DNA of 64,000 nucleotides from Nereocystis luetkeana (taxonomy: Eukaryota; Sar; Phaeophyceae; Laminariales; Laminariaceae). The stretch covers positions 3,648,953 to 3,712,952 of the forward strand of contig JARUPZ010000035.1 in the NCBI GenBank assembly GCA_031213475.1, in the 5' to 3' direction. Positions 6,801 to 63,902 of the stretch are shown here, one piece after another; the first letter of the stretch is position 1, and each line of letters begins with the position of its first letter. A model generated the notes under the pieces. It worked only from the letters and a program-made list of their open reading frames with translations. It searched no databases and was not told the DNA's origin. The translations under genes were made by a program, and so were the position numbers.

Positions 6801-9800
6801 CAGGGAATCGGTCGGCGTCATAAATCATAACGAACCAGAGGATGCAGGATAACTGATATACGCTGATATTGTCGGTACATGGTAGCGTTGACACGCCTCC
6901 TCCGCAGTGCCTGCGGATGTCCAACAAGCTACGGGCGATGGCGGAGACTTTTCCGCCACTGTACGCAACTTGCTGAACACCTGCAGGCACTGTGAAGGGG
7001 GTGTGCTGCCACTATTATAGTAAGTGCAGCCAAAATCAGCCCACAGGAGCTATCCTGCACGCTCTGGTTCGCGGGGGTTTGGTCGGCGTACTAACCCCGC
7101 GCAGTTTACCTATAATTACTGCGCTTCCCCCCCCCCCCCCCCCCCCCCCCCCCACTCGCCACCCGGGTAGGTCCATAAAAGAGACGGTCCCAGGTACCGA
7201 CTGCATACCTCGAGCCTGGCTACTTTCGCACGAAGGTCGTCCACTGCCGCCGGCGGCTCCCTCCATTCCCCTTGGATTCCTTGTCGCGAATACGCGTCCC
7301 CCGTCCGGGCTACCTCCGCTGGCTCACGCGGAGAATCATATGTCATGGAGAAGTCAGCACCCGCGGTTGGGGGCTGGACCGAAGAGGATTCGTCCACGCT
7401 CGCCTCTGCGAAATCTAGATCATCCCCACCGGCCACAACAGGGCGGGCGCTTTGCGCATACCTTAATCGTTTCACCTGCGAGGACAAGATGGGGACATTT
7501 TATCGGGGGTTTCCGGTTACGGAGTGTCGAACTGCTGTGGTTATGGCGGCAGTGTCTTCATTTTACAATGTAGCGGTATGCTGTCGGTTGGCAGCCCATC
7601 TGACTCACCTCTTCCAGCAAAATATCGATTTGGCCTTCCCGCTCTTGCACGCATTGCTCTAGCCTAACCACCGCAGAGTGATCGTCTTCCCCGTCATCGT
7701 CGCCTCTCCCATCGCCGCCTTTCTCACCCCCGCCACGCCCCCCCCCCCGACCTCTACCCCCATCCCCACCTCCATTCCCGCCGTTGCCTCCCCCCATCGC
7801 CAATCTCGCGTCTACTTTCAGTCTCCGCCTGGCAGCGGCCTCGCCCAGCGCGCGGATCTTGGCATCCTTTCTGCGAAGGAGCACCAGTGCCCGCCTTGTT
7901 TTTTCTTCAAACGCCTCGCGTTCTCTCCACACCGCGAGGTCGGCGAGCCGAGCGACGCTTGGGGAGGCCGCGCGGAGTTCGGAGACCAACGCCTAAGGAC
8001 ACAAAGGGACGCCGGTGGTGCGATGCGCACATAGACGGGGGCTACCGCATCAGCTTATGTCTGCGACGCCAGTTCCGAACCAGACGCTCAGCACCCATGA
8101 AGGGTAGAAACGCAAAAGACAATGCCTGATACTGGAATGCTGTATACGTGTTACTTCGAAGTATATTATATCAGCCGCCGGGGCGCCCAACGTTCGGAAG
8201 CAGGTGAGCAGCAACGAGACAATATATCTAGATCCTACTCGTCGTTCTTGTAAGCAAGGGCTACACACTAGCAAAGGTCGCGAAGCAAAAACAATTTTGT
8301 TCTGAACAGAAACATTGGTGTGCTTGCCTACGTGCATACATGTTACCTGGTATATAGTAGTAGACGACTAAGGCGCCGCTCAGAGCCAACAACACAATGG
8401 TTGAGGGCAGAACCCGTCAACATTTCACACTCCGCGCACCATAAATGAATACTGGTAGGAAACAGGTACCAGATATACGCAATTCGATGGGAGACGACGA
8501 GAGAAGAAAGGGCTGAAGTGTTCTCGCGATAAAAATACAAGGCAAGAACTGTAATGGGCAGAAGGGACAATAGCCTCTTTTTGTGACCCAGGATCTGAGT
8601 AACGACTATTACTATTAATAGTAGTGAGGACTATTATTATTCATGATAGTAAGGAGAGAGACAGGAAGGGTGGAAATAATAAATGGAACGGAAAAATGAA
8701 GATAATAACATACTGCACCCCGATCGGAGTTGGTGCCATCCACAAGTCCGGACACAGGAGTAGCAGCAGCCGCACGTAGCCGCATCAGTGGCAGAGCACT
8801 TCGTTACTGCGGTCTGGATGAGAGATCAGTTCAGCTCAGTAGTTTTATGTGTGTTCGTTTCTGAACGGTAAGGCCTATGCCAATGGAAACGCGAAGTTCA
8901 GAAAAAAAAAAAATCAAACATATTGCTTTCAAAGAACAGCCGAATATTTTCCTCGTGCCGCCGCTGTGGGAAAAAAAGAGAAAAAATGTTTGATTTTTTC
9001 TTTTTTTCCCCCCCAACGGCTGCAGGCGGCGCAATTTGTTTTTTCTGATTGCAAATTGTCAACACGCTGATAGAAATCAGCTCGTGCGACGATCGACGCT
9101 CGATCTCAACACAGATGCAGCCCACGGCCAACCCGCTCGGTGTCCGGCAAGGCCAACGAATATAGATGACGGTCTCGAAGATATCGGGCGGGTCCATGGT
9201 CTAGCGGGCGAGAGCTTGCCGGCGGCGTCCTACGGTATCCTCCCAAACCTGAAAAAAAGCCTATTTTTTGCCATTCGAGACGGATGGAGAAGCTTTGTCT
9301 TCTGTTTTGTGGACGCCAGCGGCCAATTGTTTTTCATCATACGCCTCGTCAGCTCCCGCCACATGACACCGGCCATGGTGTGAAGACGGTGACCCTGGGG
9401 TGGGTCGGAGCCCCTAACGAGCGCACTCCGTTCAGAATTCATGACGCAGTCGTTGGTTTTGTCGACCGATGTCTGTCAAGGACTCGGAATTTCGCCGCTT
9501 TGAACCAAAGATCGGCCTGAGTTTTTCTCAAGCCGATGTCCCAACATCGGGCCTAGATTTGCTTTTTTCGGGCTTTTCCAAAAGTTTGGACCATTTTTTT
9601 TTGTAAACGTGCCCATAGGAAGCGTGTTCTAAAACATTCTGGAGGGTATCTTTGAAATTCAAACTTTTCATTGATACTTCGCTTTCCCATTGGCCTAGGT
9701 CTAAGCTCTTAATTTGATGGTATTGGCACATCTTTACATTTGGAAATGCAATACTCTACAACAACAGCAGTGTCATCATGTTGTAACAACAGCAGTGTCG

Positions 9801-10716: not shown

Positions 10717-12043
10717 CTAAGGGTAATTAATGATGAATGATTGGTGATGGATCCGGAAGAAACATCGAGCTACTGTGTGTCGTATGTGTTTGAGTTGCAT
10801 AACGAGTCACGACAATGTTGTGTTACGACGCGGCTGAAATATTACGGGGGGGCCACAGTTAACAGGACCAAATATTGTTAGTAAAAATGGTTAAACATGT
10901 AGGTTTTTATGTATACCATAGGTCCTGTTAACTATGTTCCCCCGTAATAGTAAAGAGCGGCAGCGGCAGCCACACATATTTGCGATCTTAGAGGGGCGCG
11001 ATGCCCTGCTGCTTCATCGGACTGGCAGGAATGATTCAGATTCAGTCTCCGGTCGGATGCTGAGCTGCAGGTACCAATCGGGCTATGATATGTGTAGGCA
11101 TACATGCTTCGATAGGAGGCTCCGGCCAGCAACCACGAACAACGTCTAAAAATGAACCTCTCTCGTCTGTACTCCTACAGCAGTACCAGGTACAGAGGTA
11201 CAGATCCTGTGATGCGCTGGCTCTAAAAAATGTTAGGGAAAAAAAAAAAAATCTGGGTGATCAGACCACACCTCGCTGTATCACCTTTATACTTCCAGAC
11301 TCCAGACACATGGTTATACCCCGGGGTGGATTGAGCCCGAAAACATCTATACATTCCCCCAAGAGCGCGCAACGGCTGCACACTTCGTAACGACGAGTGC
11401 AAAGACCGCCAAGTGCTGTGTCGCGGTGTCGGTGCGTCCTCTCGCGTGAAACGTGACCGAGAATGCGATACATATCAACCGTCACAACAAAACGTTTGTG
11501 TTTGCGCTCTGCGCACTTCATCAGACACGTTTATTGTGATGTTTTTCTACTGATTTTTCTAGATTAGATCCTCCTGCACAAGTAGATATCGAGACTCATG
11601 CAGAAGCCCCAGGTATAGCCCCTCTAGAGATGTAAGGAGCGCTAGCCCTTGTTACTCGATCCCCCAACAAGCCGGCAACTTGGTCCGTGCGTCGCTCGGC
11701 TGTGCCCATCAAAAACGATAATACCCGTACCAGGTATGTGTCGCTTCATGTCGATCGCTCAAGCGGTGCGCTGCAATCGTCGCTAATTTTCGTCGTGTTT
11801 CTGAACGAACGGAGAAATTTTGCAAGACTGGCAATATTTGGGATGGATCCCATGGACAACGACCATACCTGTGCCATCCCCAGAATTTTTGCTCCCGATA
11901 CGTTCTGCAGTCCGTTCAGCGCACTAAGCAGCACGCTTACCGCATCGCTGCGTAGTCACTCAACTGCTATGCAAGCAAAAATCTGAAAAATGAAGAACAG
12001 CGAAAACGAAATAGCCCCTAGGCCGGCGTAGCTTCCAAATCTT
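10717..12043. other. Divergent intergenic region between the two main genes
   Basis: Holds no supported coding sequence. It should contain the missing first exon(s) and promoter of the coiled-coil gene. It also carries a 100-bp inverted-repeat element (10845-10944) and the micro-insertion motif at 11184 and 11728. An ATGCG|GTAAGC on the minus strand near 11935-11945 is a possible start exon, but its phase does not fit the next recognised exon, so I do not call it. Confidence 0.5.
10845..10944 (+). mobile_element. 100-bp inverted-repeat element (MITE), copy A
   Basis: Terminal inverted repeats of about 27 bp (CGGGGGGGCCACAGTTAACA... and its complement with AGTTAACAGGACC) around an AT-rich core. 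Flanked by TTA and TAA, consistent with TA target duplication. Nearly identical to 14654-14753 in opposite orientation. Confidence 0.85.
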
Positions 12044-13753: not shown

Positions 13754-13796
<43 letters not shown>

Positions 13797-16700
13797 CTCG
13801 GCTCGACACACCTTCATCAGTACCCGTAAATCTACTTCTGGCGCACGTGCTACAACATCTACGGAGCAAGCCGTACGAATGGTCTACTTGACTTGGTACT
13901 GCCGAGAGCATTGAGTTCCGCCCATCGCTTGTCATCACAGCCAGTCGAAATTATTCGGTGAACTTTTCGCCCGCTAAAAGCTCCAATATTCCAGTATACC
14001 CTACAGCAGTAGGGTACCCCATGTTACCTGGTTCCATTGTAACTGGTATTGTACCAGGTATGCGACGAGGAACGTACCCGGATGTGGATTCTCGCGTCTC
14101 TTAGACTGCTCTCACGTTTGTTGTCCGTAATCAGAACAACAGCAGTCTCAACTTGAACGTAAGTACACATGAGGAGGTACCAGGTACCTGGTATGATATA
14201 CTCGTATACCTGGTACCTGGTGGGTATGTATTTAGACTGAGACATGTTGACTACAAGGTATACATACTTCTGTACTATTGATACTTGTGGTTTTTGAGTG
14301 AGGTACTTGAGTAGAGAGCTGCGAGCCAACATCCACGAAAGTGAGAGCTGCTGCCATGCTGCCATGCATATTGCGTCCCTCTTTCGCGAAATTAGTTATT
14401 AATAGTTACAACCCGCTCCCACCCACTAGACGGACCTGCAACCCTCTTTCACCTGAAGAAATGAATCGATATAACCGCCCCCCCACAGCTTGATTGTCGT
14501 ATCATACCAGCAGTACAAGTTCTTCTCCACAGCAGTAGTAATATATTTCCAACATGTAATCTATTAAAAGTAAGACCACACGGTATACGAGTATTAACTC
14601 CCACGTATACGAATTCTTTTAATAGCGCTTTCGAAGTCGTGTACTACTATTTGCGGGGGACCATAGTTAACAGGACCTATGGTACACATAAAAACCTACA
14701 TGTTTTAACAATTTTTACTAACATTATTTGGTCCTGTTAACTATGGCCCCCCGTAGTACTGATGTCGCCATGATTAGCGCCGTCACTCCTCAAGACGAAA
14801 GGGTCTACGCTCTGCTTGGGGTTTACAGTAGTACGTACACTCCTCGTACAGCCTTCGTCCTTTCGTATCTACTACTGTAGTACAAGCGCTGTCTGCCGTA
14901 CGCGTGAACAGCTAGCAATAGAGACTCCACGCCAACCGGAAAAAAAATCTCCGCGCAGGTGCGACCAAAATGGGGTTCGTTTCGGGGCGATCACTCGATC
15001 GATCACTGCCCCAACATTAACGCAAATCGGGTTCGCACCTGCTCGGGGAATTGTTTTCGTTTGGCGCTGATTTTTCTCTTCCGTTTGCTGTTGACGAAAG
15101 CGGCTAATAAAGCTTTGCTCGATTCAAAGGTACGAAGGCTGTACGAGGAGGATTGTACGCTACTCGTAGACCCTTCTGTCGTGGAGCGATGACCCTGTTA
15201 TTGGTGACAAACACCAACATGCGAACTTGACGTAGATTGGCATGATACGTACATGGTAGCAGTCACTTTCTTTTGTGGATGTCGGCTCGCAGCTCGTACG
15301 TGCGTAGCTCTATTCAAGAGCTCCTCGACTAGCGCTGTAAAAATAAATTGACCTCGATTTCAATTTCATTATTTCGTACCGGAAATAGAGGGAAATATTT
15401 ATTTCCCGTCTTCGGGCACACGAAAATTAAAAACAGCAATGACGACAACGGCAGCAGCAGCAGCAGCACCACCACCACCACAACCACCACCACCAACAAC
15501 ATGGTAATATGTGTACTACGACACGAAACGGCAGTCGTGCTCGCAAAGCAGCACCATGCTACGAGGAGGTGGTGCGTTGCATCTTGAGCCTGGGGTCAGT
15601 AAAAACGTAAGAACAGGGTGAGCGTACCCCTTGTCTTATTGTGGGATTGTGAGTTACGTCAGCAAGAACGATTCGCACGTCGGACAGATCACGATCTATC
15701 TGATCTATCTGTAGATCTAGATCCTATCCTGCCGTTATGAGATGTCGTGCATGATTTGTAGAGTACAGGTCCAACCCAGGAGACCTGTCCTTCAGTAAAT
15801 CGTACGGATTATACAGCTCCCATCCGACAGCATGAACTAGATCATACCGATCGGGAACATATGCATCTATATTCCCTGAAGGGTCTAGATCACGAAAGGA
15901 TCTAGATCATGAACTGTGGAAATCGTTGTTTTGTCCCGTTGTGTGGAACGATTGAAAGAGGCAACTTCAACTTACTCCCGCGTGCGCGGGTTGCCCAACC
16001 TGGACGACCAGCAGCTCTCCTTGCGCAAGCTTGAGAAAAATTGCACCGGCAGTACAATGTCATGCAATGCATCAATTACACCACGGGTTTCAAGTGTGTC
16101 AATTGCGTATATATATTGTTGTATGTATGATGCACCCGGTATGCTGTAGTCTGCATTTCCACCGCACGCGCCGTGGGCACTGCTGCTGTCTTTCACCGGG
16201 AAACAGCAGCTGCTGCGTATGACGATTTAATCTGTTATAGGACGATGCTGCGGCTTCGCGGCCGAACGCAAGCCATGTAACGTGCGGAAATTTTGATCGC
16301 AACCAAATGGCTGTACTATTCTGTTCTGCTCTTGAATCTGATGTTATCAATGGTTGTTCTGAGTGTTGGCGTGGTGGCAACGCACACGTAGGAGCAATGA
16401 GCAATGTGATAACAGCAGTCAGCAGTACCAGTCTACGAGTGCATCTACGAGTATGCCAGTATCGTTCACCGCTCTTTCTAAAAGCGTATGCACTCCCTGT
16501 TGAGGTATGCATACCCAAACGTCTGATATGTGATACGTAGGTAGCACTCCCAGACAGAGAGGTTGATGGCACCAGGTGCCGGCAATAGGATAAGCTGCTG
16601 CACCGGTACACGAGGTTCCGTTTTTTTCGTGTGATTTCGCTCTCCGTGTCTGTGTTGTAGTTTTTGTGACCTCAGGTCTGGCAAATATCTAGGATTGCGG

Positions 16701-19700
16701 AAGCGACTCGGGCACTGGTTGTGCTGGACGTCGAGGGGGTAGAGATGACGGTTTCATGTGAAGAGCGCACACCCCAAGTTCGTACAGATGACATGATATG
16801 ATACAATACCTATAAACGGTATCATATATATGCAGTGCTGGATGCTCGGTAGCTTCGTGAACTGTGATGCACCAAGTAATGGGGCATGGAAGGACGGCAC
16901 GACTGCACACATACGACGTATACATTTTGGACGGGGTTGATTTACGATGTATTTGAGTGAGTGCGAGTGGGCGTCAGATTATTTGGACATGCATCATCCT
17001 TACATGCTGAGGGGGCGCCCCCTGTCTGTACACGGCTGCAGAAGAGTTCCTGATAGCGCACGCCGAGGAGAGAGCTGCGGGTAATGCGCATATGCAGCAC
17101 ATAATGTGTACCTGGTGTATATTAGTCAATGAGCTCTATACTGCCGTGCTGCTACAAAAATACATCAGCTATCGGGTACCAGGTATGTGGTAGCTACTAC
17201 TTGGTGTTTGAGCAACTTTTTTTAGGCGTCTCAATGCAGTTGCAGTGCAGCAGCACGCGACACCCCTTCAGAATTTCTTGTTTCGGGCCAGGCAGAGTGT
17301 TTCACTACACAACGTCAAAATTTCAGCACTCAGAAATGGTGTTCTCATGTTCCGTGCAAGGATCGAGCGACCATCATTAATAGAATAAATCTTGACTGCC
17401 CAATTTTTCTCAAGTGCTGTCGCGTACTAATAATGCTGTACTCGAGCCCGTGGAAGAAACCCTGTCTTTTTCACCCTTGTCGTGTGTCGATGCGTTGCCC
17501 CCTTGACGCCTGGAACAACCCTCTGTTGGTGTGTTGTGGGGGCGTCTACTCTTTAGCTTTCCAAGTATCTCAGTAAGTGTCTCAGCGTTGAAGACACACC
17601 AGAAACGCCAGTGGCGTTTACGGCTTGGCCCAGCTCGGACAAGATGGTTGTGAACCCCACACTATTAATAGCTCCCCATTGCATACTTTATGTTCCGAGA
17701 ATTTCCCCGAGCGGTCGGGGCTATATACAGTATAGAGTTGGGGAATAATGCCGATGAAAACACAACCTATTGTGTCGAAGACGGACGACGGTCTATTCAG
17801 GCTTCCGGTGCTGTCTTATGTATTTGCCAAGATCCCACATAGATGGTTGTGACCTGTTCATTCAGACAAATTCTCAGGCCATACGTGTTCATTCAGAGAA
17901 AAGTTCAGGACATACTTGTTGACTGTACATACTAACTCTTCACTACCAGGTACATGCTAAGTCCGATAAATGCCCCCAGCAATCTGTGTTGCAGGGTCAA
18001 GGGCCAGACTTCAAAGGCAAGTTTGTTTCAATGATATGTCGACGCTGGACCAAGGCCTGTCCAGCCCTCCGTTAATGTTGACGTCCCATGCCCAGATTGG
18101 ACGTACATTACTGGTGGCCTACAGTACAGTATTAATAGCACAGTACTCCTCATGTCGTTTTGACTCGGAGAAAATTCCAGGCCGAACATGTCCATTCCGA
18201 GGTAATTCTGGGACATAATGGTTGATATTGGTAGTCCATGCTACTACTGCAACTCTTCACTATAAAACTACATACTCAGATCACAACCCCTGAGCGTGCT
18301 CGGTTGGTGCATCCCTGGCCTCTCAGAGCTCCCACTTCCAAACCGCCTCCTTTCATTACTTGCCGGACCTTTCCAGCAGTTCTTTGTTTTCTCGGTCCTT
18401 TAGTCCCTTTTTCTTCTTTCGTTTCGTGTGCTTGCGTGTTCTCCGAGCACGGCATCGCGGGAGGACCCGGCACCGTCGCGGGTGTCAGCGGGTGCTGGCG
18501 GGTAGAGGGGGGGTTGCAAGGAGCGCGGTCGCCGCTTTCGTGCCTAGGCGTCGCGTGTGCCTCGAGACACGAGAGATGCATGAACGGGCTTTGTCTGGCT
18601 TCGATTCATGATTGTTGATAGAGTATGTACGAGTTATGAAGGTCGTTCGGGAGGGCAAGATAATATTCAAGCGGTGCTTATTTTTGCGACCACGCTAAAG
18701 TTGAAAGAGGGACGTGTGCAGTTTGAACACCAAGGTTATCGAGCTGGCGAACGACGGCCACGGTGAGCACCGGGCTCCACGCGAGGCGGGCGACGGGGCT
18801 GATTGTGGCAGAGAGTGATACCTGGTAAAAGCTTTACCCGGACCGAATCGGTAGCGAGGTGGTCGCGAGAGGGGCGGGCGGCGTACGAGGCAGAGAGAGA
18901 AGCTATTCTGTGCGATTTTTTTCTTTTCTTCTTTTCGACCGGGCTGCGGGTGTAAGGTGTTCCAATCAGGCAGAAAAATATTACACGAGAGGGGACGGGG
19001 ATTATTTTTCCTTTCCGAGTTTTCGGTTTCATTTTCATTGTTTTGGCTGCTGTGCCGTGCTGTGCTTTCGCTTTCTTCGTACATACAGTACAGACATAGA
19101 GCATATCGAAAGAATAAAATAAGTACAGACAGTAGTACGCTACCTAGGGTATGTACGTACGTACGACATCCGCGACGCGAAGCGTATATGGGGCATCCAA
19201 GCTGACGTCGGAGCTGTTTTTCCCTGAAGCATGGCGGCGGGACTCTTGGCATTATCAAGTCGCCGGTTTGCAATTACGATCCTTGAAAACACTAAACTCA
19301 ATCGTGGACCTCTGTTCGCTTCGCATAATAATTTGATGTACTTTTTGCTTTTTTCCTGAGCGAGCGTAGCGGGCGGCGTAGGCCGCCCGCGGAGCGAAGC
19401 GCCTTGTATAACATATTTTCATCCTTCAAACGTGGAGCGGGCGGTTACACGTGTGCTGTAACACTTTCTTCGCATGTCGGAAAATATCGATATAGCGATC
19501 TAGATCACCCACTGCAGTAGATCTTATCCTGCCTCTGTTAGATGGTGTGCAGAGGGTCGCTACAACAGCCCAGATTCAACCCAGCAAACGTGCCCCAGAG
19601 ACATCGTGCAGATTTCTACACCTCCCACCCGGCAAAACACGAGCTATGACACGAACGTAGATCATACAGCAGGCCATAAATCCATCTCTCTGAAGGAGCT

Positions 19701-22700
19701 AGACCGTGGAGTGGGGATCTGATCTGATCGGATATTTTCTGATCGGATCCGATCCGATCTGTCCGATTTCTGAATCCGATCCGATCTGTCGATCGGATCC
19801 GATCCGATCTGTCCGATTTCTGAATCCGATCCGATCTATCCGATTTGTGAATCCGATCCGATCTGTCCGATTTTGTGAATCCGATCCGATCTGTCCGATT
19901 TGTGAACGTTTTACTCTTGATGCCTCCGTCGTCTTGACGTCGTCTCGACGTTTTCTCCCCCTTCGGCCGCTTCACTCGGCAGCTCGGCATGGTGGTTCAC
20001 CACTCCACGCGATTCCGGAAAAGCTTGGAAGAGTCGCTGCAGCAGGCGGTGGAGTTGGCGGACGACTTCTCGAATTTGGCGGCGGGGCAGGGAGGGGAGC
20101 GCGAGGCGGACCCGTGGGCGAAGCAGGCCGGAGAGCATGCGTTTGCCCTTAAGGGCATGCTGGAGGAGAGCGTGGTGTCTCTGCGGCGGTGAGTGTGACA
20201 GTGGGGCGGGAGGGGCGGGAGGGGCGGGAGAGTGGGGATATGGTTGGGGTGGGGGGGGGGGGGTTCCTGAATGGCTGCTGGAGGGGAGGGGGGAGGGGAA
20301 AGGGCGGGGGGGGTCCTGATCGGCATGCTGGAGAAGAGAGTGGTGTCCGCGACGGTGAATGTGACTGTTGTTGGGGATAGGGGGTGGGGGGGGTGGGGGT
20401 ACTCATGCCGTGCATGGCCGTAGTCGTATGGCCATAGAGGCGCGGGGGGGAGGGGGGGGGGGGGGGGGGGGGGTACTCATATCATGCATGGCTGGGGCGG
20501 GGTCTTTCTGGATGAACCCCGTGGATCGAGAAAGACCCCGGGTAGGCAGGCGGGCGGATGCCTAGTTTTCTTCTTCATTCACTGCGAGCGGAGGGGTGGC
20601 GACGGTGTTTTTGATGTCACTGCTGGTACACTTCGAAGTAGATGATTACGAGCCAGTGCGATTTTGTAGTTTATTCGGTCGCACTGCTGGTATGATTAAC
20701 TGCAAGTACGAGGCAATGCGATTTTCTAGATTACGCCGCCCCCCCCCCCACAAAAAAAAAACAAGAGACCCCCTTTGCGCCTTCTGAAGACCGGTTCTAA
20801 GACCACTGCCGAACGAGATTTACACTGTATATACGTAGGTATATACATATGATTATCCAAAAATTGTCAAAATTCAACCGGCACGCACAAGTTGACGACA
20901 GTTCCAAAACACCCCCTTGCTGATCGGGTTCCTATGTAGCAGCAGCTCTAAGACTTTGTTAACCTAAGTTTTTGACCGATGTCGGTTGGAGGGTTTGTAT
21001 TTTTCCTCGGCCCAGCTTCGCGAGGAGAATGTGCAAACATGCTTGACTTCAACTAAAATCTGTATAAACTTGACCCTAACCCCGACCGCCCGAAAATGTT
21101 TTCGGAATGAAGATGTCACGGGGAGTTATATACTACCAGGTATTATACAAGCCCCCTTGACAACGGCTAAAAACGGATCTTTCAGGGGGTCGGGTTGCTA
21201 ATTCGTTCACGATTCTCCGGCTAAGGCTCATTCTTATCGGGGAGCTTTTTTTCCAGAATTTCCAGAGTTCGGAAATAGTGGGAGATGTGTACCAAGATAC
21301 GGAGGCGTTCTGTCACTATTCATGAAATTCTCCAGGAGCAAAACAAAATAGGTTTGTTGAAATTCACATATCTGGAAAAAAAAAATCAGGAAAATGTGGA
21401 AGATGAGAAAATTCCGCGAAAAAAAATGGAAATTTTGGAAGAAAAGCTCTCCGATAAGAATGACCCTAAGAAGAACCTCCGATGGTGGGATGAAGGCACG
21501 GGCGTAGGCCCCACCCCCAACCCCCCTGACCTCAGCCCGGGCCAGGCCAGACACAGACACGCAGCAGCTGCGCCACGTTCGAGTCTTTCATATATTTCCG
21601 AGCTGTGGGACACGATTTGCGAACTGCGGACCACAACTTTAGTCCCGACACTTGACAACGAGTGAATAGTAAATTTCCCGGAAGTTTACTGAGTTGTAAA
21701 TTTCCTGGAAATTTATTTGTAAATTTCCTGGAAATTGATGGTATTATAGCCCTTTTAGAGCTGCAGTCCCGTTTTGGCGACAAACTGCTTCGAATTTGAG
21801 TTGGAGAGGGTTGAACCGCTGGGAAACCTGTCCTACGTAAGCCGTTGCCACTGCTGTACAACAGTAGGTGTGCTGCTTATTGCGGGAAAGTATATACACC
21901 AGTCTGTCCCTAAATATAAGAAAGGTTTGTATTGAATATTAGAACCAAAACGTTTCTTACCTTTGGAGATAGACGGGTATATATACCTGGAAGTTATCAT
22001 AAATATATAGGGTGTATATACATGGGGGGATAAGACTTTTTTGTTTTTTTGTTTTTTTGTTTTATGTCATTTTTAGTTCCGATTGCTTTGCCCCCCCGTA
22101 AATTGTGTGGACTTTCAACTATTTTTGTCGAATTTGGGCCAAGTCGTAAAACACTACTGTTCCCCCCCCCCCCCCCCCCCCCCTTCCCCCTCTCATCACA
22201 CCTCCTTCCTTTGTCCTTTATCCTTGACCCTTTGACTAAAAAAAACTCATGAAATTTCTTGGAATGAAGATGTAAGGACGTATTAGAAGCGGCACTATGA
22301 ACCAATGCACACCTCAGACAGGTCATACAGATCACGACCTATCTATCTACGTTGTCACTGGTCTTTGTAGTTTAACGAGTTGTATACCCTTCATGGGGAA
22401 TAACCTACGCAATTATCAGGGACGTGGTATCATAACTGTGCTGCACCTTTTTGTGTCAGACAATCCAGGAAGAGATAGCGATCGTTGATATTCGTGTGGT
22501 AGTGAGGTTCGATTGCTCCTTTTTTTCACTGCATATCCGCGAGTCTTCACTCTGACAGCACTCCAGATAGCAGGCAGGTGTGTTCTTCTTTCGTTTTCAC
22601 GACTACCGTGCGTTTCGTACGGTGCAGGCAGCACTTCAGACAGCATCCGCTGTAGTCAGCAGCCACGAGTTGGTTAGTGGTGGGAACGAGGGTACTCTGT

Positions 22701-25700: not shown

Positions 25701-28700
25701 TCCCTCGCGTTGATTCGTCCGTGCAGCAGATACTAATAGCTGTCCTTTCTGAGTACGTATGTATGCTTCCCGTCTATTAATATTCATAGCAGCCTTTCTG
25801 ATCTCCTAGCGTCGTTTGTATTCTGTATCATTTCATCATTTGTTTTTGGCTTTAGTTGTCTTTTTGTTACCAGGTTTTATTTTCTGGTCTTGCTCGTGTT
25901 GTTGTATTCTCGCAACCCGGCACGCTGGCATTTCATTTGCTTGACTCATGAATTTGCGATTATTTTTTGGTCATCCTCTGTTTCTCACAACCTGTGGCCA
26001 CATAATAAGTATCTCTCTACAGTAGGATGTGGAATCAGGACGGACACTGGGTGTACTGATGCTGGGTAGAAAAGGACGATTTAATGTTACATGATGCGGA
26101 TCTTTGAGGGCAGATGAATTCGTGCTCTGTACCGGGTATGATCGGTATGATCTAGGTCATGTTGCCGCGTGGGAGCTGTGTAATTAATCTGCATGATCTA
26201 GACATGTTTCCTGGTTTGGATCTGTACTGTACAGATCCTGCACAATATCTCATAACGGCAAATGAGGATCTAGATGACCTATCTGTAGATGATCTATCTG
26301 CCCGACGCGTGGAAGCTGTGTGGCTTCTCCAGAGGGGGAGCACATCAAAGCTAAAATGTGTAAGGTTGAACGTGGGAAATCTGGCGTTTGTGTGGAGCGG
26401 GATTGATTCTTGACATACCCTGGTATGTGGAAGGCATGCTTGGTTAGGGGATACATATATACGAGTGTGAGAGAGGGCGAGTCCGGTTGAGGTCAAACTC
26501 TCATTCACAAGAGAGAGAGACAAGGCACGCGTTCTCCGACAAGGGTGGGTACTTTTTTGCCTTGCAAGGCAAATAAATGCCCACGACTGATGGGGCTTCT
26601 CAACTGAGGAACTGCCACCCAACACCCGCGTGTTTTCTTCAATATTTTTCGTTTTAAGAGACCTAGGCCATGGGATGGATTGCTTATCATAGGGTTGATA
26701 ACCCTATTAGCGCCGCAGTCCCGTTTTGGGGACAAGTTACTCGGAATTTGACTGGTTTGTCCCCAACACGGGACTGCGGTCCTAAAGGGGTTTAAAATGT
26801 GCGCTTTTTATTTCATCCTTTTGGGACTGCAGTCCCGTTTTGGAGGAAGGAAACCGTCTTAATTCTAAGAAGGTTGTCCCCGAAACGGGACTGAGGTCTC
26901 AGACGGTTACATCGTCAGTTTTTGGGTGCGATATTGAGGTCTCATGTGAGGAACAGCCTCCGAAAATTGCAAGAGCACCCCTACAGCATCAGCATGCGTC
27001 AAGGACACGGCGGGTAACCCTTTTTTTATTTTTACGCTGGAGGGTTGGTGGGTTCGGCGATGGGTTAGCGGGGTGGGTGGGTGGGAGGGCGGGTGGGTCG
27101 ATTGGTATGCACGTGGGTGAGTGCTTTCGTGCCTGTGGTTGGTGGCGCTGTCATTTTTTTTCTGGTGACTTGTTTTTCGTGCGCTGTACCGGCCCCCCCC
27201 TGGCATATTTCAGCGTACCACTAGTAGACTGCTACTGTTGCAGCATCGGCCACATGAGGCAAGCAACCTGTCCGGGTATCTGGGGTGTATGTATTCGTGT
27301 ATTTGTGAGTTGTGATTTGTGAGTTGTTTTTTTTTTTCCAACGTATCTCTTCGCACGACGAGCACCTTTCGCGCAAACGCTATAGAGGCTTTTACATGGG
27401 AAGGCCGGCTCGTTGCTGTGGTCGTGGTCCGGGCGCGATCCGAGCAGTGGTCCTATTTGTAGGACTTGACAGGCGTATCTTAGAAATGAATGTATACTTC
27501 GTACCAGGTATAGGATACATTTATGAATACATCTATTGTGTAAATCGGACGTATGGAGTGTGTCCGAAGTGCAAGTTGAAGACCTGCACGACACGCACGC
27601 TGTGCAGGGAGCATGGCAATATATACCTGGTACTCTTCTGCTGCACGCTCTTCCTGCTGCTGATGTTGCTGCTGCTGTTGTTGTGGCTGTTGCTGTTGTT
27701 TTTGTTCTCACATTAACTAGTCGCCGAAAATCGAGCCTGTGGCGACGGGACAGGTTCCAGAACACTCTGGGGCAGAAGACTACCTCGAGTAGAAAAATAA
27801 AATAAAAAACTACCAGTACAAAACAGTATATATTTTTTTCTCATTCTATTTATTATTTTCGCACATCTTCTTCTCTCTCTCCTTCCAACTCGTAACTCAG
27901 ATCCGGGGTCACATAGCAGGCTCTTCTCCCCCCTTTCCCGCTACGGTACGTGCCTTCATTTTTATCGCGAGAAGATTTCAGCCTTTTCTTCCCTCGTCGA
28001 CTCGCATCGAATTGTGCCTACCCACGCTGCAAGGCGCTCTCAACAATTGAATCCTTTTTTATTTTTATTTTTGCAAATAAAGGCAAATGCCCGACCCACC
28101 TGGGGCTCGAACCCAGGACCCAAACACAAGTAGAATTCGAGGTTAACCACTTGAACCACCGGGGCGACCGGCTTAGTATGCACAAGATACACGTCACAAC
28201 TGAAGCACATCCCAAGCACCTCAGACAAAAAAACGAAAAACGCCTCTGATGAGATCGATTTCGTCGTTTTTTTGTCGCTAGGCGTAAAGGTTTTTTTTTC
28301 GCTAGGCTGGAGTTCGTGCTTGGAAAAGAGCTGCGCATTCGGACAAATCAGATAGATCATTCCCACTTGAGTATGTAGATCTTGAAGGGCAGATAGATAG
28401 ATACAGCAATCCTGACTTGTATGATCTGGCTCGTGTTGCCACGTGGAAGCTGTGGGCACACGGGATGTATAGGAAGTCGGCGAGTTCGTCAAGTGAACCG
28501 CCGCCGAACCATCCCAATGTGCTGAATCGGAACAGCAGCCAGCTTTTCCCCGAAGATCAGCTCCCGAGGAGTTGCACGCTCGGGGGGCATGGCGCCGGCA
28601 CGAGGGGGGACTACACATCAGTCCAAACGAGGGGGAAAATTGGACCGCAACGTCGCGCCCACTACCAAACTTCCAACTGCGAGATCAGCTTGATAGCACA

Positions 28701-31700
28701 GCTACACCGCGCCCACTTCAGCACCACGCCCCTCCCGCACAGCATGCATACGGGCGCGGGCGGTCTCGCGAAGATGTGCAGCTTCAATTTCATGGTGTGG
28801 AGGCTGCCGTGAGATCGACTCATCGTGACATTCTCCAAAGCTTCGTCTACTCTTTTTTTTTTTTTTTTTTTTTTACGAAAACGGCACTCAGCAAACGATG
28901 GCTCTTGCCTCACAAGCTCTTTTTGGGAACGAGGACCGTGCGATCTCCACGATTTCTATGATCCTTCGAGATGAGATACTTCGGTGGTAGTTGACATGTC
29001 AATCGCGCCGACTTCTCTATAGAACCCCCGTGGTATTCTGGAGCCTGGAGGACCAAAACTTTTAGCCCAGACCACCGTTGCCGAATACTAGAATCGTTTC
29101 CGACGAGCCAATTTTTGGGCCCTCTCAAGGCACCAGAATACCGGCTTATTTTCGAGAAGTCGGGGCTTGAGTTGGCATCGACTGCTGCCATGGTGCCGCA
29201 GGGCGAGACCACCGGAGCCTCCTCGGCTCAATCATCACGTGTGTGTTCTGGTAGCAACCAGTCCGACACTGAGCTGAAACTCAACAAGTCTTCTACAGCA
29301 GCAGTGTAGCTATTCGGCATCTTATTGGTCCCGGCCTCTAGCGGCATGTTTTTGTTTTGAAACTTACTCCACGCCCCCGCCCTTACGCCCACGACTTGTT
29401 TCCACACCCATGTCGTGTGTCGGTTTTGGCTCGCTTGTAAGACACGGTGATAAGGCTGCTGTGACAACGGAAGCGCGAGCGAGCTGCCGACCCTGATCCT
29501 CCCACTGCCGTCTCTCGGTCCCCCGCCTTTCGCACCCCCTCCCCTCCCCTCCCACCTCAGGTACTTGTGCGACGAGCTCGACGAGAGGATGATGCGGGTG
29601 CTCAACGAGGCGGTGGCCGACTTCAGCGGTGTCCACGCGCAGATGGTTGTGCGTTCCGAAATGAAGGTACATGAGAGTTCATGAAGGCACATATTGGTAA
29701 ACGAAGAGGCACATGCCTACTTCATATTGGTGGTTGAATGTATACACCTGTGGCTGTTTTATTGAATTGACTATACATGTAAACATACTGGTATAATGTT
29801 GATACGTTACCAGGTATATACCAGGTACCTGGTATACTTTGATAAAAGTTGCATATGTTGATAGATGCCAGGTACCTAACTGGTACCAGGGTATGTTTTT
29901 TTCAGTGTCAACTGGTGGTTTCTGAACAAAATTGCATATGTTGATAGATGCCAGGTACCTAACTGGTACCAGGTACCAGGGTATGTATTTTTCAGTGTCA
30001 ACTGGTGGTTTCTGAAACGGGTTATCTGGGGTTTTTTTTGTCCTCGGACCTTTCGGCCCACTTTTCGCTCCTGTGCACACTCAGGTTCGGGTATTGGCTC
30101 GCTTTGTGTCGCTTTTGTTTCGCGCTGCGTTGCGTTTTGTGTCGAATGTATACGTGTGGAACTCCGATACCAGACGTGGTATGGTTTTATCGGACGCGGT
30201 TTCCCCTCCGTCCGCTGATTTGCCTGTATTTTCAAATGCCGATTTATCGTGCGGATCGATTTGAGTTTTTGTTTATTGTGGGACGGTAGTCCCGCGGCAA
30301 GTTACCTATTTATGTTATGTGTATGTGGAAGCGTTTCCGAGGGAGGGTGGGTTGCGTGGCGGTCACCTCACTCTCGGTGGCCAGCAACTATAGAGTTGAA
30401 GTATCAGTAGAGGTAATCTCGGAGTACCCCCGAGGAGCCAAACGGCCTTGAAGGATTCTAGTGGTAACGAGGCGATATGATCTAGGGGATACCAAGTAGG
30501 ACCTGATATCCACATTACATCAGTATCGTATTGAACTCGATTTGGTTGCGTTTGTCGATATCGTACAAAACAAAACAGTTTTATTTTCGCGTCTTTCGGT
30601 ATCGTAGATAGAACTCGATTCACGACTTATCCATCACAGTACAGTAGCTGCGTCGCGTCGCCTGACGTTTCTCCAGAGTCGCGCCTTTTGAACGACCGCG
30701 GACGTGACTCACCTTCGGCGAGAGAGGAATCGTGGAGGTTAGCCTCTCGTAGCCGTAGCCGCGTCCCAACTTATACCTCGTACTATTTGTGTTGTCGCCT
30801 CTCTCGCTCTGTTGTGTTGTATTGAGTGCGCTTCAAGTATGAGTGCTCTCTGTTGCGTCGTTTGCATCGGTTTCGTTTTGTCTTGTGTCGAAGTCGTCGT
30901 CATCATTATCGTCAATTCCCTGACCCATTCCCCTCCCCTTCCCTCTTCTCTCCCCCCCCCCCCCCCCCTCCCCTCCCGTTCCTTCCCCCTTCCCTCCACC
31001 CACAAACACCCCTCCCATCCCCTCCCTCCCCATCACGCTTTCCCCTTCCCATGAACCAAACGAACTCCCCGCTCCTCCCCCCCCCCCCCCCCCCCCCCAC
31101 CCCCGCGCGCCCCCTCTTGGATAGATCGAGTCTTTCCACTACGCCAACAAGGTGCAGGAGCTCAAGGGCAGCCAGAAGGCGACGGACGAGAAGAAGGACC
31201 GGAACAAGGGGAAGTACGCTTCGGCGTCCCAGGGCCTTCGCGATCAAACGAACCAGCTCATGGCCACCTTCGCCAAGGCGGAGCAGGTGCGAGAGAGGCT
31301 CCTGAAGGAGGACCTTCCCTGCGTGATCATCGCGAAGAGGAACGCCTTCGACTCCTTCGCTATCAACCTCAACAGGGCGGCGGCGGAGGCTACCGCCGGG
31401 GAGCCGCGCCCACCCAGGATGTCCGACGCTGCGCGGGCTCCTCACAGGTTCCTGTTGTTGCTGTTGTTTTTTGTTGCGTTGTGCTTCACCTCGCTAGGGT
31501 TTGTACTTTCTTGCGTGCTTGCTGTGTACCTGGCCCTTTTGTTCTACAGTAATTCGGTTCATTTCGTTGAGCTCGACTTTTTTTTACATGTCTTTATTAA
31601 GTCTTTCGTTTGTTGACGAGTACTGCGTTTGCTTTGTTTTGTTTGTCATGTACGTAGGTACGTACCAGTAGCAGGTGCTTGTTTAGTTATTTATACATGT

Positions 31701-38065: not shown

Positions 38066-38070
38066 TAGTA
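37905..38070. repeat. (TAG)n microsatellite at a retroelement boundary
   Basis: About 165 bp of imperfect TAG/TAA trinucleotides directly abut the integrase remnant at 38072. The element seems to have lost its 5' part to, or beside, this tract. Long ORFs in it are repeat artefacts. Confidence 0.9.
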
Positions 38071-38071
38071 C

Positions 38072-44582: not shown

Positions 44583-44591
44583 TACCTGGTA
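44583..44591. repeat. TACCTGGTA beside element copy 2 (filled site)
   Basis: Context CCATTGGCA-TACCTGGTA-GGTCTAAG. The homologous copy at 9688-9705 reads CCATTGGCC-TA-GGTCTAAG. The difference is exactly 7 bp apart from one substitution. Confidence 0.85.
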
Positions 44592-44935: not shown

Positions 44936-46639
44936 AGTGTTTTTCCTCGGTTGGGTTTCCCTCGGTTTTCTTATTTATGTAGTACTGGAGCTGTTTATGA
45001 GGGGTCGACATCATTCAAAGGCCATGCTGCACTTTTTGGTCGGATGGCAAGTAGTACCTAGTATGATGATACTACAGTTTTAGTACAGTACTACTACTGT
45101 TACAGTAGTAGTACAATGGTGGTGTGCGCCTCCGAAAAAGAGAGATCACTAGTTACTACGCATGATGAATGCTCCGCAAGCTACCCTCCTCCGGTCAGTA
45201 GAGCTTGGCACTACTTATGCGATAAAACGATTGACGGGTTGATACACACTGATCGCTGTGCCTATTAAAAGGACGAAAAGGACTTATTGATACCCCTCAC
45301 TACTACAATTGTTTGGGTTGGGGTTGGGATATTTATCTCCGGGTCGGAAACAGTGTTCGTCTATTTATTCTTTCTTGCCATCCGGCAGCAGTGGGCAGCA
45401 TGAGCTTCAACGTGAAATTGATCACTCACAAACATTCCGATAGAAGAAAACCACGGAGGAAACGAAAAGACCGTTTTGTTTTTGTCGATCATTTTCTCAA
45501 AGAATAACACGTGATAATAAGGTATACCTGGTACCTTCGAGTGTGCGTCGGTTAGGGTGTCAGCGTGGAATTATTTGTAGGGGCTTACATCGCATTATTG
45601 GGCCATTTTCGTCAAGTACATTGCTCAGGTCTGATTGGGAACATCTTCCATGTCTGAAAACAGTTGTTTGGGTTCTGAATTGCCTTTTTTATGTGGATGG
45701 TATGCGATTGGAACAAGCGTCAAACACATTTGTCAGATGGTGAATGGAATAATATTAATGGAGCTAGATTAGTCCAACAATAATGGGTCTCCTTGATTAG
45801 TTTCCATGGGCGCCCTTGTTTTCTGTAGCTTACCTGGTCGTGAGTATGAAGTAAAAGTTTTATTATGCTGTCAAAGTGTCGGATGGAAAACAAACGCGAT
45901 TCGAAATGTAGCAATGAATGGTATGCACCTCCGAAAAGAGATAGATAGCAGGTCAGTTCGTACGAGTATTCAACTGAACTCAACATTCAGTATATCCCGA
46001 ACGGGGGGATGTTGTTTGGCGGTGTTGTTCATGCTCTTGCGGGCAAACGGCTTTCTTCTCGTACCTTTGATTTGGTTTATATTTTTTCCCCTTTTCCATC
46101 CGATGTTGTGCGGCACAAAAATAAAAACAAACGCCGATCATTCGTGAACAACTGCAATGCGGCAGAAAGAAGAAGAACGCCAAAGGTGAACTACACAAAG
46201 AAAAACCTGTTTTCGCTTATTTCGCTACTTGCTCCCGGCTAAACATCGACCTTTTTGTTACTATCAACGTGCTTATACTTCTTATCCGGCCGACAATGTG
46301 CGGGATGAGCTTCAACCTTGATCACTCATGAACATTCTCAGCAAAAGAAGAGGACAGCCAAAGGAAACTCAAAAAGAAGCCTGCTACTACTGTAACTGCT
46401 GTATGTATATTATTAGCAATACAGTAATAGTATCGATGAGTCGTATAAGCAGAACTAACCATATTAGAACTGGAGAAACATAGGATAACCATTGTTGGGA
46501 TTCAGATTGTATGGTGATTGTTGAGATGACATGGACGGAGATACCTTAGCAGTAAGAGGACTATCCTCAAGTCGTCTGCCGATAAATGCAACTGGTCTCA
46601 GAGCGCTGGCCAGATGACGGTCTTTGGAGTAGGTTTCGC

Positions 46640-52960: not shown

Positions 52961-54022
52961 TAAGAAGGCTGGGTCATGGGTAGCGCTGGGCAGAAGTGGT
53001 GCACTGTGCATAAGACGACCACGCACAGCACCGGCGATTGCTGCGCGAAAGGATTTCCGCATTCAGAGACGAGTAGTACGCTCACGGCGGCTGTGGTGAC
53101 CGCCCGCAACAGGAGTTGAGCCGATTGCTAATTATAGCGACGACTTCGACAAGGTTTTCACGTCTTAGCTCGTGAAAATACAACAGGGATCGCCGGAGCA
53201 TCATCGTTACCAGGAGTCGCCTCATCAACGTGGGGTCTCCGGAAAGACGTTCCACTCGATCGCTGCAAACAAAGCACGTGGAGTTGCCGGAAAGACAAAT
53301 TTCGGACTCACTACAGCACTGTTCGACGGGACTGCCGGAGCTTCCGGAGTCGCCGCAACAACAACAGCCGCGCGTGGTCGACGTCGTGTGTTTTCGGGAT
53401 CGGGCTGCAGTATAATCTATACTACCTGGTACATACTACCATCAGAGAATGTCTTCTGTAATCGCCGTACCATCGCACTTTTTAGGACTGCCGGGACAAC
53501 GGTTTTGGGGTCGCTGGGTATCGTCGCTTAGAGACTGCACCGGGCCATCTCTTCTGAGGTCGCTCAACATATTCAATCGTCGTTTGGGACTGGGCGAGCA
53601 TCATTTCTGGGGTTTCTGCACCGTCATCAGCAGCCTGACATCTACGACAGCAATGCTTGTTTAGTACCGGTAGTATATAGCACCACACTTCTTCTTTGTA
53701 CAAGGGGGGAGTCGTGGTAGGCTGCCAGTTATAACATTTTCTTGGTCAACTAACGGATCGTAAAAACAGGAACGCTCTACTCTTTAGATGCAGTTGTGAG
53801 TTTTTGCAGTACCGTGTCTACTGCACATGTTTTCTTGCACTAACACAAACCGGCAAACCGGCGTTTGACTCTCCACCCATCCTTTGCAACACCATGTCAA
53901 TATGGAATGTGTTTGAGAAGCAGATTATGATATTTTGCGCTGCTATTCGACTGGTATCCTTTCAGAAGTAAAACTTACGGCCCATTCCGGCGTCGTAGTA
54001 CTCAGGAGTCATATCGCACCGA

Positions 54023-59779: not shown

Positions 59780-59863
59780 ATAAATTATGGGCTGAGGAAG
59801 CACCTGTGAGGTGGGAGAATATAGCGAGCAAGACAGCTGAGGTTCGGAGTATTATTGTAGTAT

Positions 59864-60997
59864 ATACAAGGCGCTTCGCTCCGCGGGCGGCCTACGCCGC
59901 CCGCTACGCTCGCTCAGGAAGGAAAAAAGTACATCAAATTATGCGAAGCGAACAGAGGTCCACGATTGAGTTTAGTGTTTTCAAGGATCGTAATTGCAAA
60001 CCGGCGACTTGATAATGCCAAGAGTCCCGCCGCCATGCTTCAGGAAAAAACAGCTCCGACGTCAGCTTGGATGCCACATATACGCTTCGCGTCGCGGATG
60101 TCGTACGTACGTACATACACCCCAGGTAGGGTACTACTGTCTGTACTTAATACATTATGTTCTTTTTTCGATATGCTCTATGTCTGTGCTGTATGTACGA
60201 AGAAAGTGAAAGCACAGCACGGCACAGCAGCAAAAACAATGAAAATGAAACCGAAAACTCGGAAAGGAAAAAAAATCCCCGTCCCCTCTCGTGTAATATT
60301 TTTCTGCTTGATTGGAACACCTTACACCCGGTCGAAAAAAAGAAAAGAAAAAATCGCACAGAAGAGCTTCTCTCTCAGCCTCGTACGCCGCCCGCCCCTC
60401 TCGCGACCACCTCGCTACCGATTCGGTCCGGGTAAAGTTTTTATCACTCTCTGCCACAATCAGCCCCGTCGCCCGCCCCGCGTGAAGCCCGGTGCTCACC
60501 GTGGCCTTCGTTCGCCAGCTCGATAACGTTGGTGTTCAGACTGCACACCTCCCTCTTTCAACTTCAGCGTGGTCGCAAAAATATGCACCGCTTGTATATT
60601 ATCTTGCCCTCCCGAACGACCTTTATAAACTCGTACATACTCTATCAACAATCATAAATCGAAGCCAGACAAAGCCCGTTCATGCATCCCTCGTGTCTCG
60701 AGGCACACGCGACGCCTAGGCACGAAAGCGGCGACCGCGCTCCTTGCAACCCCCCCTCTACCCGCCAGCACCCGCTGGCATCCGCGACGGTGCCGGGTCC
60801 TCCCGCGATGCCGTACTCGGAGAACACGCACGCACACGAAACGAAAGAAGACAAAAGGAAGAAATAACCGAGAAAACAAAGAACTGCTGGAAAGGTCCGG
60901 CAAGTAATGAAAGGAGGCGGTTTGGAAGTGGGAGCTCTGAGAGGCCAGGGATGCACCAACCGAGCACGCTCAGGGGTTGTGATCTAAGTATGTAGTT
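59864..60997 (+). mobile_element. 1.13-kb element with GC-hairpin end, copy 2
   Basis: Partner of 18266-19409, begins ATACAAGGCGCTTCGCTCCG and ends near AAGTATGTAGTT. Copy 1 carries TACCTGGTA at 18819 where this copy has only TA (about 60440), giving a filled and an empty site for that motif. Confidence 0.75.
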
Positions 60998-61675: not shown

Positions 61676-61890
61676 AAATGAGGAATTTAGAGCAAAGCCT
61701 CGGGAGGAAAACCCCTAATGATCAAACCGGGGAAAGAGAGAGGGTCGTCGGGTTTATTTTCGGTAGTATCATATACCTGGTATATGATACGAGGGAGAGG
61801 GTCTTCCATAATCAGTTTTGCTCGACCTGCGGCAAGCGTACTTTTCGTGCAATCTGTCACTTTTTTCCGAGAAAAGTGTAGGAAGACTAC
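61676..61890 (+). repeat. Dispersed repeat, copy 2 (possible solo LTR)
   Basis: Partner of 51432-51680, with no retroelement coding around it. It contains a perfect 25-bp palindrome at 61766-61790 centred on the TACCTGGTA motif, absent from the other copy. Confidence 0.4.
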
Positions 61891-62140: not shown

Positions 62141-62383
62141 CTCGCGCTAGTCGCTATTATTATAGTCATTTTTTATGCACACATGCGACAATGATGACAT
62201 ACCAGGTATGCACAACCTAATCTTGACTCAATCGTCTATCACATCATCACCGATCACACGTGAGAACACAACACAACTACCTGCTGGTGTTGCTTATTTA
62301 TAGTATTACCAGTAGTTTGAAGATGAGTTTTTTTTTGTTCAAGAAGTTACTGCTGTAAAATATTGTACGCGTATCCTACGAGG

Positions 62384-62406
62384 TACCTGGTACCTGGTAC
62401 CTGGTA
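62384..62406. repeat. Triple tandem TACCTGG array
   Basis: Three overlapping TACCTGGTA motifs at 62384, 62391 and 62398 share their TAs (period 7). This is what repeated insertion of CCTGG with TA duplication into a flanking TA would give. Confidence 0.85.
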
Positions 62407-62864
62407 TATTTTTTTCATTAAAAAACTAAAAGAGTACGTCAGCTTTGTAGCCCTGTGAGTCTAACCGCACACGCAATGCTCAATTCAATGTTTTTATCGT
62501 ACAGCAGGAGACATATAGTACAGACAGCAGACACGATATTTTTTTCAGCGGAGGAGGTGGAAGGAGTGGGCCGAGGAGGGAGAGATAGCTTCAATTTCAG
62601 GTCAGTCAGGCTCGCGGCGTTTTGTAATATTAGAACCCCGCACCTGCGTTTTTTGGGGGCAAAATACTTGAAATTACTGTGAATTGCAGTCGTGAAAGGG
62701 TTACGGGAGGCTACAGCCAGTAGTACTTTGGATTTAGAGTACATACCAGGTAGCGTTCCTCGCTAAGCATACGTCCTTTCTAAACAACAGAGTAGCCTCG
62801 GGTAGTTTACTCGTAGGTGTACTATCAATAGTATTGAGTATAAGTATATCACACCTGGTTGTTG

Positions 62865-62965: not shown

Positions 62966-63902
62966 AGGCAAAACACAAAAAACAAGCATACGCACTCCAC
63001 CACTGCGGACACCAGGGAAGCAAAAAGGAGACTATTAATATTAATTATTAATAGCAGACAAAAACCTAAAAAAAAAGAAGATGAAGCTAAGCAAAAGAAA
63101 AACAAAAACAAAACAAAAACAGAAGCAGATAGCAAAACGCAAAAAAAAAAAAAAAAACTGGTATGTCATACCAGGTACCTGGTAGCTGATACCCCTGGTA
63201 TGTACGAGTACGAGTAAACGAGTTAGACACTCCAGACTCTCTCTGCTGCTGCTACCTTGCCTTGCACATACATGTGGTACATTTTATGTTTATACTTGGT
63301 GCACAGCGGTGTAACCAATAACCCAACAAACCCAACCATCGTACCTTGTATTTTCAATTTCTTTCATGCACGACATTTCATACCCTGGTAGCTTTTATCA
63401 CTCTGTCCAATATTGCAGTCCCCTTTTGTCCACCCATTCGAGATTAAACAGGGATTATATTTCCGATCAGAGTGACAGATCTGACATATGATAACATCGC
63501 TGGTCCTGGTACCAGGTTCGTAACAGTTTCGCCAGTGGCAGTATCTTTCAGTCAGTCAGATCATACACACAGCACTTCTCGCAGATCTCTCTACCTCTCT
63601 AGCTATGCTTCTGGCTACTCGTATGAACGTACAGCCTGCGAGTCGTAAGCCTCTCGCACCTACGAGTATACACTCACACAGTTATAGTAGAGCTTTCACG
63701 CCACTTTCCATCCTCCATCACGCTTGTGACCTGGCAGCCAGCTCTTTGGTACAGCCGCCGCCAGCGGGAGCAAAGGTTTATAGAGGCCTGGAGGGTGTTT
63801 TCCATTTTTCTTTCTTAATTTTCATCAAGAACCCCCACCGACAAACACAACGCACAACAGCAGCAACGCACAGCAAAAACAAGAGGGAGGACGCCCACAA
63901 CA

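Follow-up and report, generated by a model that had tools for sequence, protein, structure and literature searches.

TACCWGGTA sites of Nereocystis luetkeana, 7-bp gains at TA dinucleotides that are probably excision footprints of a Tc1/mariner-like transposon

The nonamer TACCWGGTA (W being A or T) is dispersed through a 64,000-nt stretch of the genome of the brown alga Nereocystis luetkeana (hereafter the window, i.e., C35:3648953-3712952 of an assembly of 465,085,209 bases in 1,987 contigs) and, for sites with comparable copies elsewhere, it is a recent gain of CCWGG and one TA at a TA dinucleotide. We propose, with moderate confidence, that these 7-bp gains are footprints from the excision of a Tc1/mariner-like transposon that targeted TA and had CCAGG ends and a 5-nt stagger, a parent element that we infer from its presumed scars.

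The window holds 34 exact copies, equally divided between the two strand forms (17 TACCTGGTA and 17 TACCAGGTA), while Markov models of orders 0-3 predict 0.4-0.66 copies (0.58 at order 2) and order 4 predicts 1.7, low-complexity words being left out of these expectations as well as of the word-enrichment counts. The original prediction, made from the letters of the window, had listed 33 positions, every one of them exact, and had overlooked a further copy at 6450. Once homopolymer, di- and trinucleotide runs are set aside, TACCWGGTA is the 9-mer with the highest count in the window. The genome-wide excess implied by the original prediction is equally clear, with 182,395 copies in the assembly (mean spacing, 2.5 kb) versus 1,744 of the reversed word. 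We also sampled three contigs at round coordinates, taking 23 stretches (10 kb apiece, designated by L numbers) that hold another 67 copies, so that window and sample together comprise 294 kb and 101 sites; the satellite locus L020, which is without TACCWGGTA, was excluded from the sample analyses, leaving 284 kb for the element searches, repeat-copy test, word screen, enrichment, decay and open reading frame (ORF) counts, and trimmed forms. Tandem arrays were also set aside in part of the work on the core and its trimmed forms.

The gain itself is documented by repeat copies. For 100 sites with 45-bp flanks, each homologous place was compared with the filled form and with the flank-joined empty form, leaving out sites less than 45 bp from a stretch end and dropping homologues below 50 bits, with less than 12 nt on a side or overlapping the site's own flanks, filters that left out window sites 29967 and 37744 as well as L031:5755. 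Homologues were found for 10 of the 100 sites and all 36 comparisons were EMPTY (TA kept, 7 bp absent), with 0 FILLED, several pairs also differing next to the site by a substitution or a gap of 1 nt. As a control, 936 other TA-N5-TA sites, 228 of them with homologues, gave 1,170 FILLED, 97 EMPTY and 38 ambiguous comparisons; a FILLED homologue exists for 204 of the 228 and just 19 are EMPTY-only (Fisher test versus TACCWGGTA, 1.5e-10). The 97 EMPTY controls include telomere and AT runs, and also L028:573, L012:9667 and L012:9688, which overlap TACCWGGTA insertions. TACCWGGTA likewise ranked first in a screen of TA-Nn-TA words (n from 1 to 10; 2,723 sites in repeat-covered DNA, low-complexity surroundings dropped), with 11 of 11 sites EMPTY-only, including the tandem case at 29967, and an all-against-all comparison of the 294 kb placed 13 sites in alignable repeats, where the other copy mostly has a plain TA. 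The cleanest presence/absence pairs are those of window site 18819, L014:7563, L015:1556 and L012:9881, together with the double L012:9674/9681. The first had been noticed from the sequence by comparison with a repeat near 60440, and it is indeed a clean 7-bp difference in a repeat pair 94% identical, with the empty TA at 60442-60443. For the other pair then proposed, 44583 versus 9697, the absence of 7 bp holds (at 9696-9697), but an adjoining A/C substitution is present close to where the homology ends; L021:9637 and L028:566 similarly combine the 7 bp with an adjoining change, and the L023:4504 alignment is poor. Site 29967 and its empty counterpart lie within a tandem repeat, where slippage could be responsible.

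The window sites and their empty counterparts are as follows; all the sites are exact matches, with no strand assigned where none is given.
6450..6458, TACCAGGTA, overlooked in the original prediction; shares bases with the end of the 6347-6453 hairpin
8344..8352, TACCTGGTA
11184..11192, TACCAGGTA, adjoins TACAGCAGTA at 11176
11728..11736, TACCAGGTA
14052..14060, TACCAGGTA
14178..14186, TACCAGGTA, dimer partner of 14185
14185..14193, TACCTGGTA, dimer partner of 14178
14207..14215, TACCTGGTA, followed by a partial unit
17177..17185, TACCAGGTA, a TA 7 bp away on either side
17944..17952, TACCAGGTA
18819..18827, TACCTGGTA, homologous copies have a plain TA without the 7 bp
21134..21142, TACCAGGTA
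27502..27510, TACCAGGTA
27624..27632, TACCTGGTA
29808..29816, TACCAGGTA
29819..29827, TACCAGGTA, dimer partner of 29826
29826..29834, TACCTGGTA, dimer partner of 29819
29967..29975, TACCAGGTA, adjoining tandem copy lacks the 7 bp
35443..35451, TACCTGGTA
36130..36138, TACCAGGTA
36605..36613, TACCTGGTA
37744..37752, TACCAGGTA, diverged homologue, the difference being no simple 7-bp gap
41019..41027, TACCTGGTA
44583..44591, TACCTGGTA, 7 bp missing at 9696-9697, plus one substitution
45525..45533, TACCTGGTA
53423..53431, TACCTGGTA
61774..61782, TACCTGGTA, within a palindromic AT-rich site
62200..62208, TACCAGGTA
62384..62392, TACCTGGTA, unit 1 of a same-orientation trimer
62391..62399, TACCTGGTA, unit 2 of the trimer
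62398..62406, TACCTGGTA, unit 3 of the trimer
62744..62752, TACCAGGTA
63169..63177, TACCAGGTA, dimer partner of 63176
63176..63184, TACCTGGTA, dimer partner of 63169
60442..60443, minus strand, empty TA homologous to site 18819
9696..9697, plus strand, empty TA homologous to site 44583
29884..29885, plus strand, TA in the adjoining tandem copy, homologous to site 29967

The hairpin at 6347-6453 is about 107 bp long and 80% self-complementary.

Arrays of the unit are common. The tandem dimer TACCWGGTACCWGGTA occurs 15,917 times in the assembly versus 2 for its reversed control, about 7-fold above the roughly 2,356 expected from uniform TA targeting, so either scarred TAs are favored, or slippage adds some dimers, or both. 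In the first 59 places listed, counted by eye, 14 dimers are A>T, 5 are T>A and 40 have the same orientation. Tandem-repeat slippage or satellite spread of the 7-bp unit would account for dimers and trimers and for the excess of same-orientation dimers among those 59, and site 29967 is compatible with it. However, the majority of copies stand alone and scattered (the 101 sites of the 294 kb include 9 dimers; the assembly has 15,917 dimers versus 182,395 copies), and a lone TA cannot yield CCWGGTA by slippage, which is thus refuted as the main source, its chances being close to nil, and may only make an extra contribution to arrays. A scan of viral contigs for the dimer matched 9 stretches.

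Once present, the word seems to decay like neutral DNA, with insertions spread over a long time, as suggested by the excess of one-mismatch forms (94 versus 44.7 expected), of which 44 are transitions (14.5 expected) and 50 transversions (30.2 expected); the rough divergence of word copies is about 6% per base. Density falls from 9.8 per 1,000 TA in the fifth of the sequence lowest in guanine plus cytosine (GC) to 2.3 in the highest, and the original prediction that no copy falls in a modelled exon was approached by proxy, through ORFs of 250 aa or more from stop to stop (not gene models), which hold 2 of the 101 sites versus 15.5 expected, a depletion that may be partly due to local GC and TA density. 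This depletion, together with the sharp palindromic core, would fit a protein-binding or other functional motif, gained by chance and kept by selection. Such a motif is nevertheless most improbable, as the 36 homologous comparisons all favor absence of the 7 bp and the one-mismatch excess, chiefly of transitions, resembles neutral decay.

Under the excision model, the element would enter at a TA, duplicating it, and its ends would start with 5'-CCAGG. On excision, the transposase would cleave the 5' ends at five bases into the element, so that each donor end keeps a CCAGG overhang; the overhangs would pair as C-G, C-G, an A.A mismatch, G-C and G-C, and repair of the mismatch would give CCAGG or CCTGG with equal chance. 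Fresh insertion into a scar's TA, followed by excision, would yield dimers and trimers, and a parent rare in or gone from the assembly would leave scars far outnumbering elements. Overhangs that pair except at the centre predict a 1:1 ratio at W, and indeed the centre is A in 50 of 101 sites, as well as trimmed forms, TACCAGTA among them. Cutting a CCAG end at 4 nt would give TACCAGTA, TACCGGTA and TACTAGTA, but not TACAGGTA; the observed counts are 29 (8.3 expected), 14 (4.6 expected), 6 (2.6 expected) and 7 (12.7 expected), respectively, and TA-CTGG-TA has one presence/absence case, at L015:7753. The footprint with CCWGG ends and a 5-nt stagger put forward in the original prediction is consistent with the central W, with some of the trimmed variants and, partly, with the target preference described below; its other half, a TA-CCWGG-ended element, was not seen in the 294 kb, read mostly as 10-kb stretches.

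Target choice was studied in flank profiles from which sites with another CCWGG nearby had been dropped, keeping 21 of 34 sites in the window and 71 of 101 overall (142 flanks). The base before the TA is A in 64 flanks, G in 52, C in 17 and T in 9, i.e., a purine in 116 of 142, with T expected at 17.9% from the window, and the flanks of the 21 window sites are AT-rich (61% versus 53%). Palindromicity reaches p 0.001 versus all TA over 10 positions and mostly reflects column composition (318 versus 291 over 15 positions). Tc1-like elements are described as favoring palindromic ATATATAT about the central TA (PMC7913693), and R-TA-Y agrees in part with this preference. At a distance of exactly 7 bp, 44 of 142 flanks have a second TA, versus 6.6% expected (p 2e-18), a feature first noted in the window (14 of 42) and reproduced in the independent sample (30 of 100); a general TA periodicity of 7 was rejected as its source, as window-wide TA spacing does not account for the signal.

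This distance is the unit's own spacing and would also suit a direct micro-insertion, in which CCWGGTA is added in a single step, with no large parent element, by an enzyme such as a TA-specific transposase carrying a short end fragment, or by templated repair at TA-N5-TA. The high uniformity of the product, the 7-fold excess of dimers over uniform targeting and the lack of any parent element seen in 294 kb, despite 182,395 copies, also speak for it. Yet a near-palindrome with a free centre and the excess of TACCAGTA and TACCGGTA are what overhang repair predicts, even if few such forms are shown as insertions, and we know of no enzyme adding CCWGGTA in one step. We therefore consider direct micro-insertion unlikely, though the foremost alternative. 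Slightly less likely still is its specific form of a genome-wide CCWGG plus TA micro-insertion that favors a TA at 7 bp, has no mobile parent and possibly has a sister unit, CAGCAG plus TA; to our knowledge, a parentless CCWGG plus TA would be the shortest known self-spreading insertion.

The search for a parent of the proposed footprints addressed elements up to 6-8 kb lying whole within the window or a sample stretch, and was blind to larger ones, to those severed by the ends of 10-kb stretches and to the rest of the assembly. No insert of 25-6,000 bp between repeat copies, examined by eye, had CCWGG at both ends, and no TA-flanked inverted repeat of up to 1.5 kb had TACCWGG ends. Several candidates were rejected. 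The lone strong end-pair match outside scar arrays (L018:388-440) is part of a perfect palindrome that continues past the motif and is not taken for an element; within this palindrome of about 60 bp (L018:384-444) lies TACAGCAGTA, and close to its ends are TACCAGG and CCTGGTA. The lone insert edge at CCTGG-TA (L015:1457-1563) resembles a deletion in the other copy, further copies having nearly the same gap without CCTGG, and when a common inner sequence was sought among 95 half-sites, TACCWGG without a following TA, the clusters viewed resembled ordinary repeat families.

As for the enzyme, a profile search of the assembly gave 28 matches to PF03184 (DDE_1; best E, 3.4e-28), a family of pogo-type affinity. 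A predicted Tc1/mariner-type DDE/D transposase is thus present in the genome, its link to the scars being only a candidate one. The full TA-CCWGG element with a DDE transposase foreseen by the original prediction did not emerge: in the ten of 28 PF03184 loci viewed, no TACCWGG inverted repeats were found, although about 3.4 kb of sequence per locus may not be long enough, and a 5.5-kb stretch around one PF03184 locus likewise had none. One of the ten, L045:1036-2951, has its PF03184 match between inverted repeats flanked by TA (matching at 15 of 16 bases, GCACCGGGG) and is a candidate TA element with other ends.

Several results weigh against the excision model. The 294 kb contain 490 end pairs separated by no more than 8 kb, none of which forms a TACCWGG-ended inverted-repeat element, and the assembly has no match to PF13358 and none to PF01359, a profile that was also silent in its control genomes. 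The gain of exactly 7 bp at a TA, as originally claimed, stands in the repeat-copy test with its control; window site 37744 and L031:5755 have homologues that differ by other than a clean 7 bp. The trimmed forms are poorly supported as insertions, since few sites with homologues are EMPTY-only (1 of 2 for TACCAGTA, 0 of 3 for TACCGGTA and 0 of 1 for TACTAGTA), and one local repeat of L011 holds 4 of the 14 TACCGGTA. Independent scars would give dimer orientations of 1:1:2, from which the 59 counted deviate (p 0.006). We know of no citable Tc1/mariner target feature corresponding to a TA at exactly 7 bp. Finally, the 5-nt core exceeds the 2-4 bp published for Tc1/mariner footprints (PMC7913693) and is unusually uniform, published ones being often mixed. 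With the element missing and a footprint whose length falls outside the published range, we do not assign the scars to any named family.

Abundant scars with parent elements unseen in 294 kb would also result from programmed elimination, in which longer TA-bounded elements are removed at each generation from the sequenced tissue, leaving CCWGG. Ciliate internal eliminated sequences are excised in this TA-bounded manner in very large numbers, with a precise return to a single TA; here, in contrast, a 5-nt remnant plus TA is left and shows decay. The one-mismatch excess (94 versus 44.7, with transitions at 44 versus 14.5) indicates that many scars were seemingly inherited as scars, and we know of no germ/soma split in brown algae, which makes this explanation very unlikely.

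Among known systems, Sleeping Beauty is close to the excision model: a central mismatch is repaired to A or T, giving TAC[A/T]GTA. It shares the TA target, its duplication and an end-derived overhang left after excision, and differs in that its overhang is 3 nt rather than 5 and its element is known; the footprint is reported as CAG (PMC8151067). Stowaway elements of grasses, Osmar5 and Ppmar2 also leave TA-flanked fragments of terminal inverted repeats, with re-insertion at already scarred TAs described for Stowaway in grasses (PMC1925063, PMC9632168), but Osmar5 and Ppmar2 footprints are 1-4 bp (PMC9632168) and such fragments are variable, unlike the single uniform 5-nt core found here at 182,395 places. 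A rice comparison indicates that excision patterns can be very complex (PMC4423477). Ectocarpus, also a brown-algal host, has 17 Mariner-Tc1 families with almost 12,000 copies, mostly non-autonomous, and the term 'footprint' does not occur in the main text of that paper (PMC12477816). Two other types of element were rejected: piggyBac targets TTAA and leaves no footprint, whereas here the target is TA and a 5-nt remnant plus TA is left, and PIF/Harbinger makes a 3-bp target duplication, whereas here the 7-bp gain has TA only. Literature searches for the word itself, for brown-algal footprints and for Ectocarpus TA showed no description of the scar among the papers listed, most subscription papers being outside their coverage.

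Other words are enriched as well. TACAGCAGTA/TACTGCTGTA has 32 copies versus 1.5 expected, in varied contexts, some adjoining TACCWGGTA (places include L027:4651, L026:7460 and window 11176, 14002, 13588 and 62348). Its two sites with homologues are both EMPTY-only, L027:4651 being a clean 8-bp case and L026:7460 unclean, and of the mixed forms CAGCTG occurs 0 times and CTGCAG once; it is perhaps a second scar family. TATTAATA, often CTATTAATAG, has 43 copies (e.g., window 8613, 13418, 17663 and 25775; L023:9551) and is EMPTY-only at 3 of 3 sites, but two of these align poorly and no alignment appeared for the third. TACTCCGAGTA (12 versus 0.23 expected), TACGAGTA (50 versus 12.7) and TACAGTA (86 versus 42), enriched in the 284 kb, presumably resemble footprints of other Tc1/mariner ends; TACGAGTA and TACAGTA are not supported as recent insertions, since of their sites that have homologues just 0 of 6 and 1 of 7, respectively, are EMPTY-only.

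A TA-flanked inverted-repeat element of 101-107 bp with ends TTACGGGGGACCATAGTTAA is repeated at L011, L021, L023, L028, L030, L031 and L032, and CCCTAA repeats at the starts of contigs C1 and C3 (L010, L012) are taken as telomere. In the window, an open frame at 38069-38764 (plus strand) encodes a retroelement integrase with 943 protein matches, the only named one among the 120 listed being from Ectocarpus sp. (63% identity); compared with viral contigs, it has no relative there. Scans of the window with Rfam (gathering threshold) and for transfer RNAs gave no match.

If TACCWGGTA is a transposon footprint, the genome of N. luetkeana would preserve a fossil record of about 180,000 cut-and-paste events, left by an element whose own copies hardly accumulated, with a 5-nt stagger falling beyond the published 2-4 nt; if no parent element exists, the mechanism would be new. 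The scars form a ready resource for work on how brown algae join DNA ends, how targets are chosen, and how 7-bp indels and frameshifts arise.

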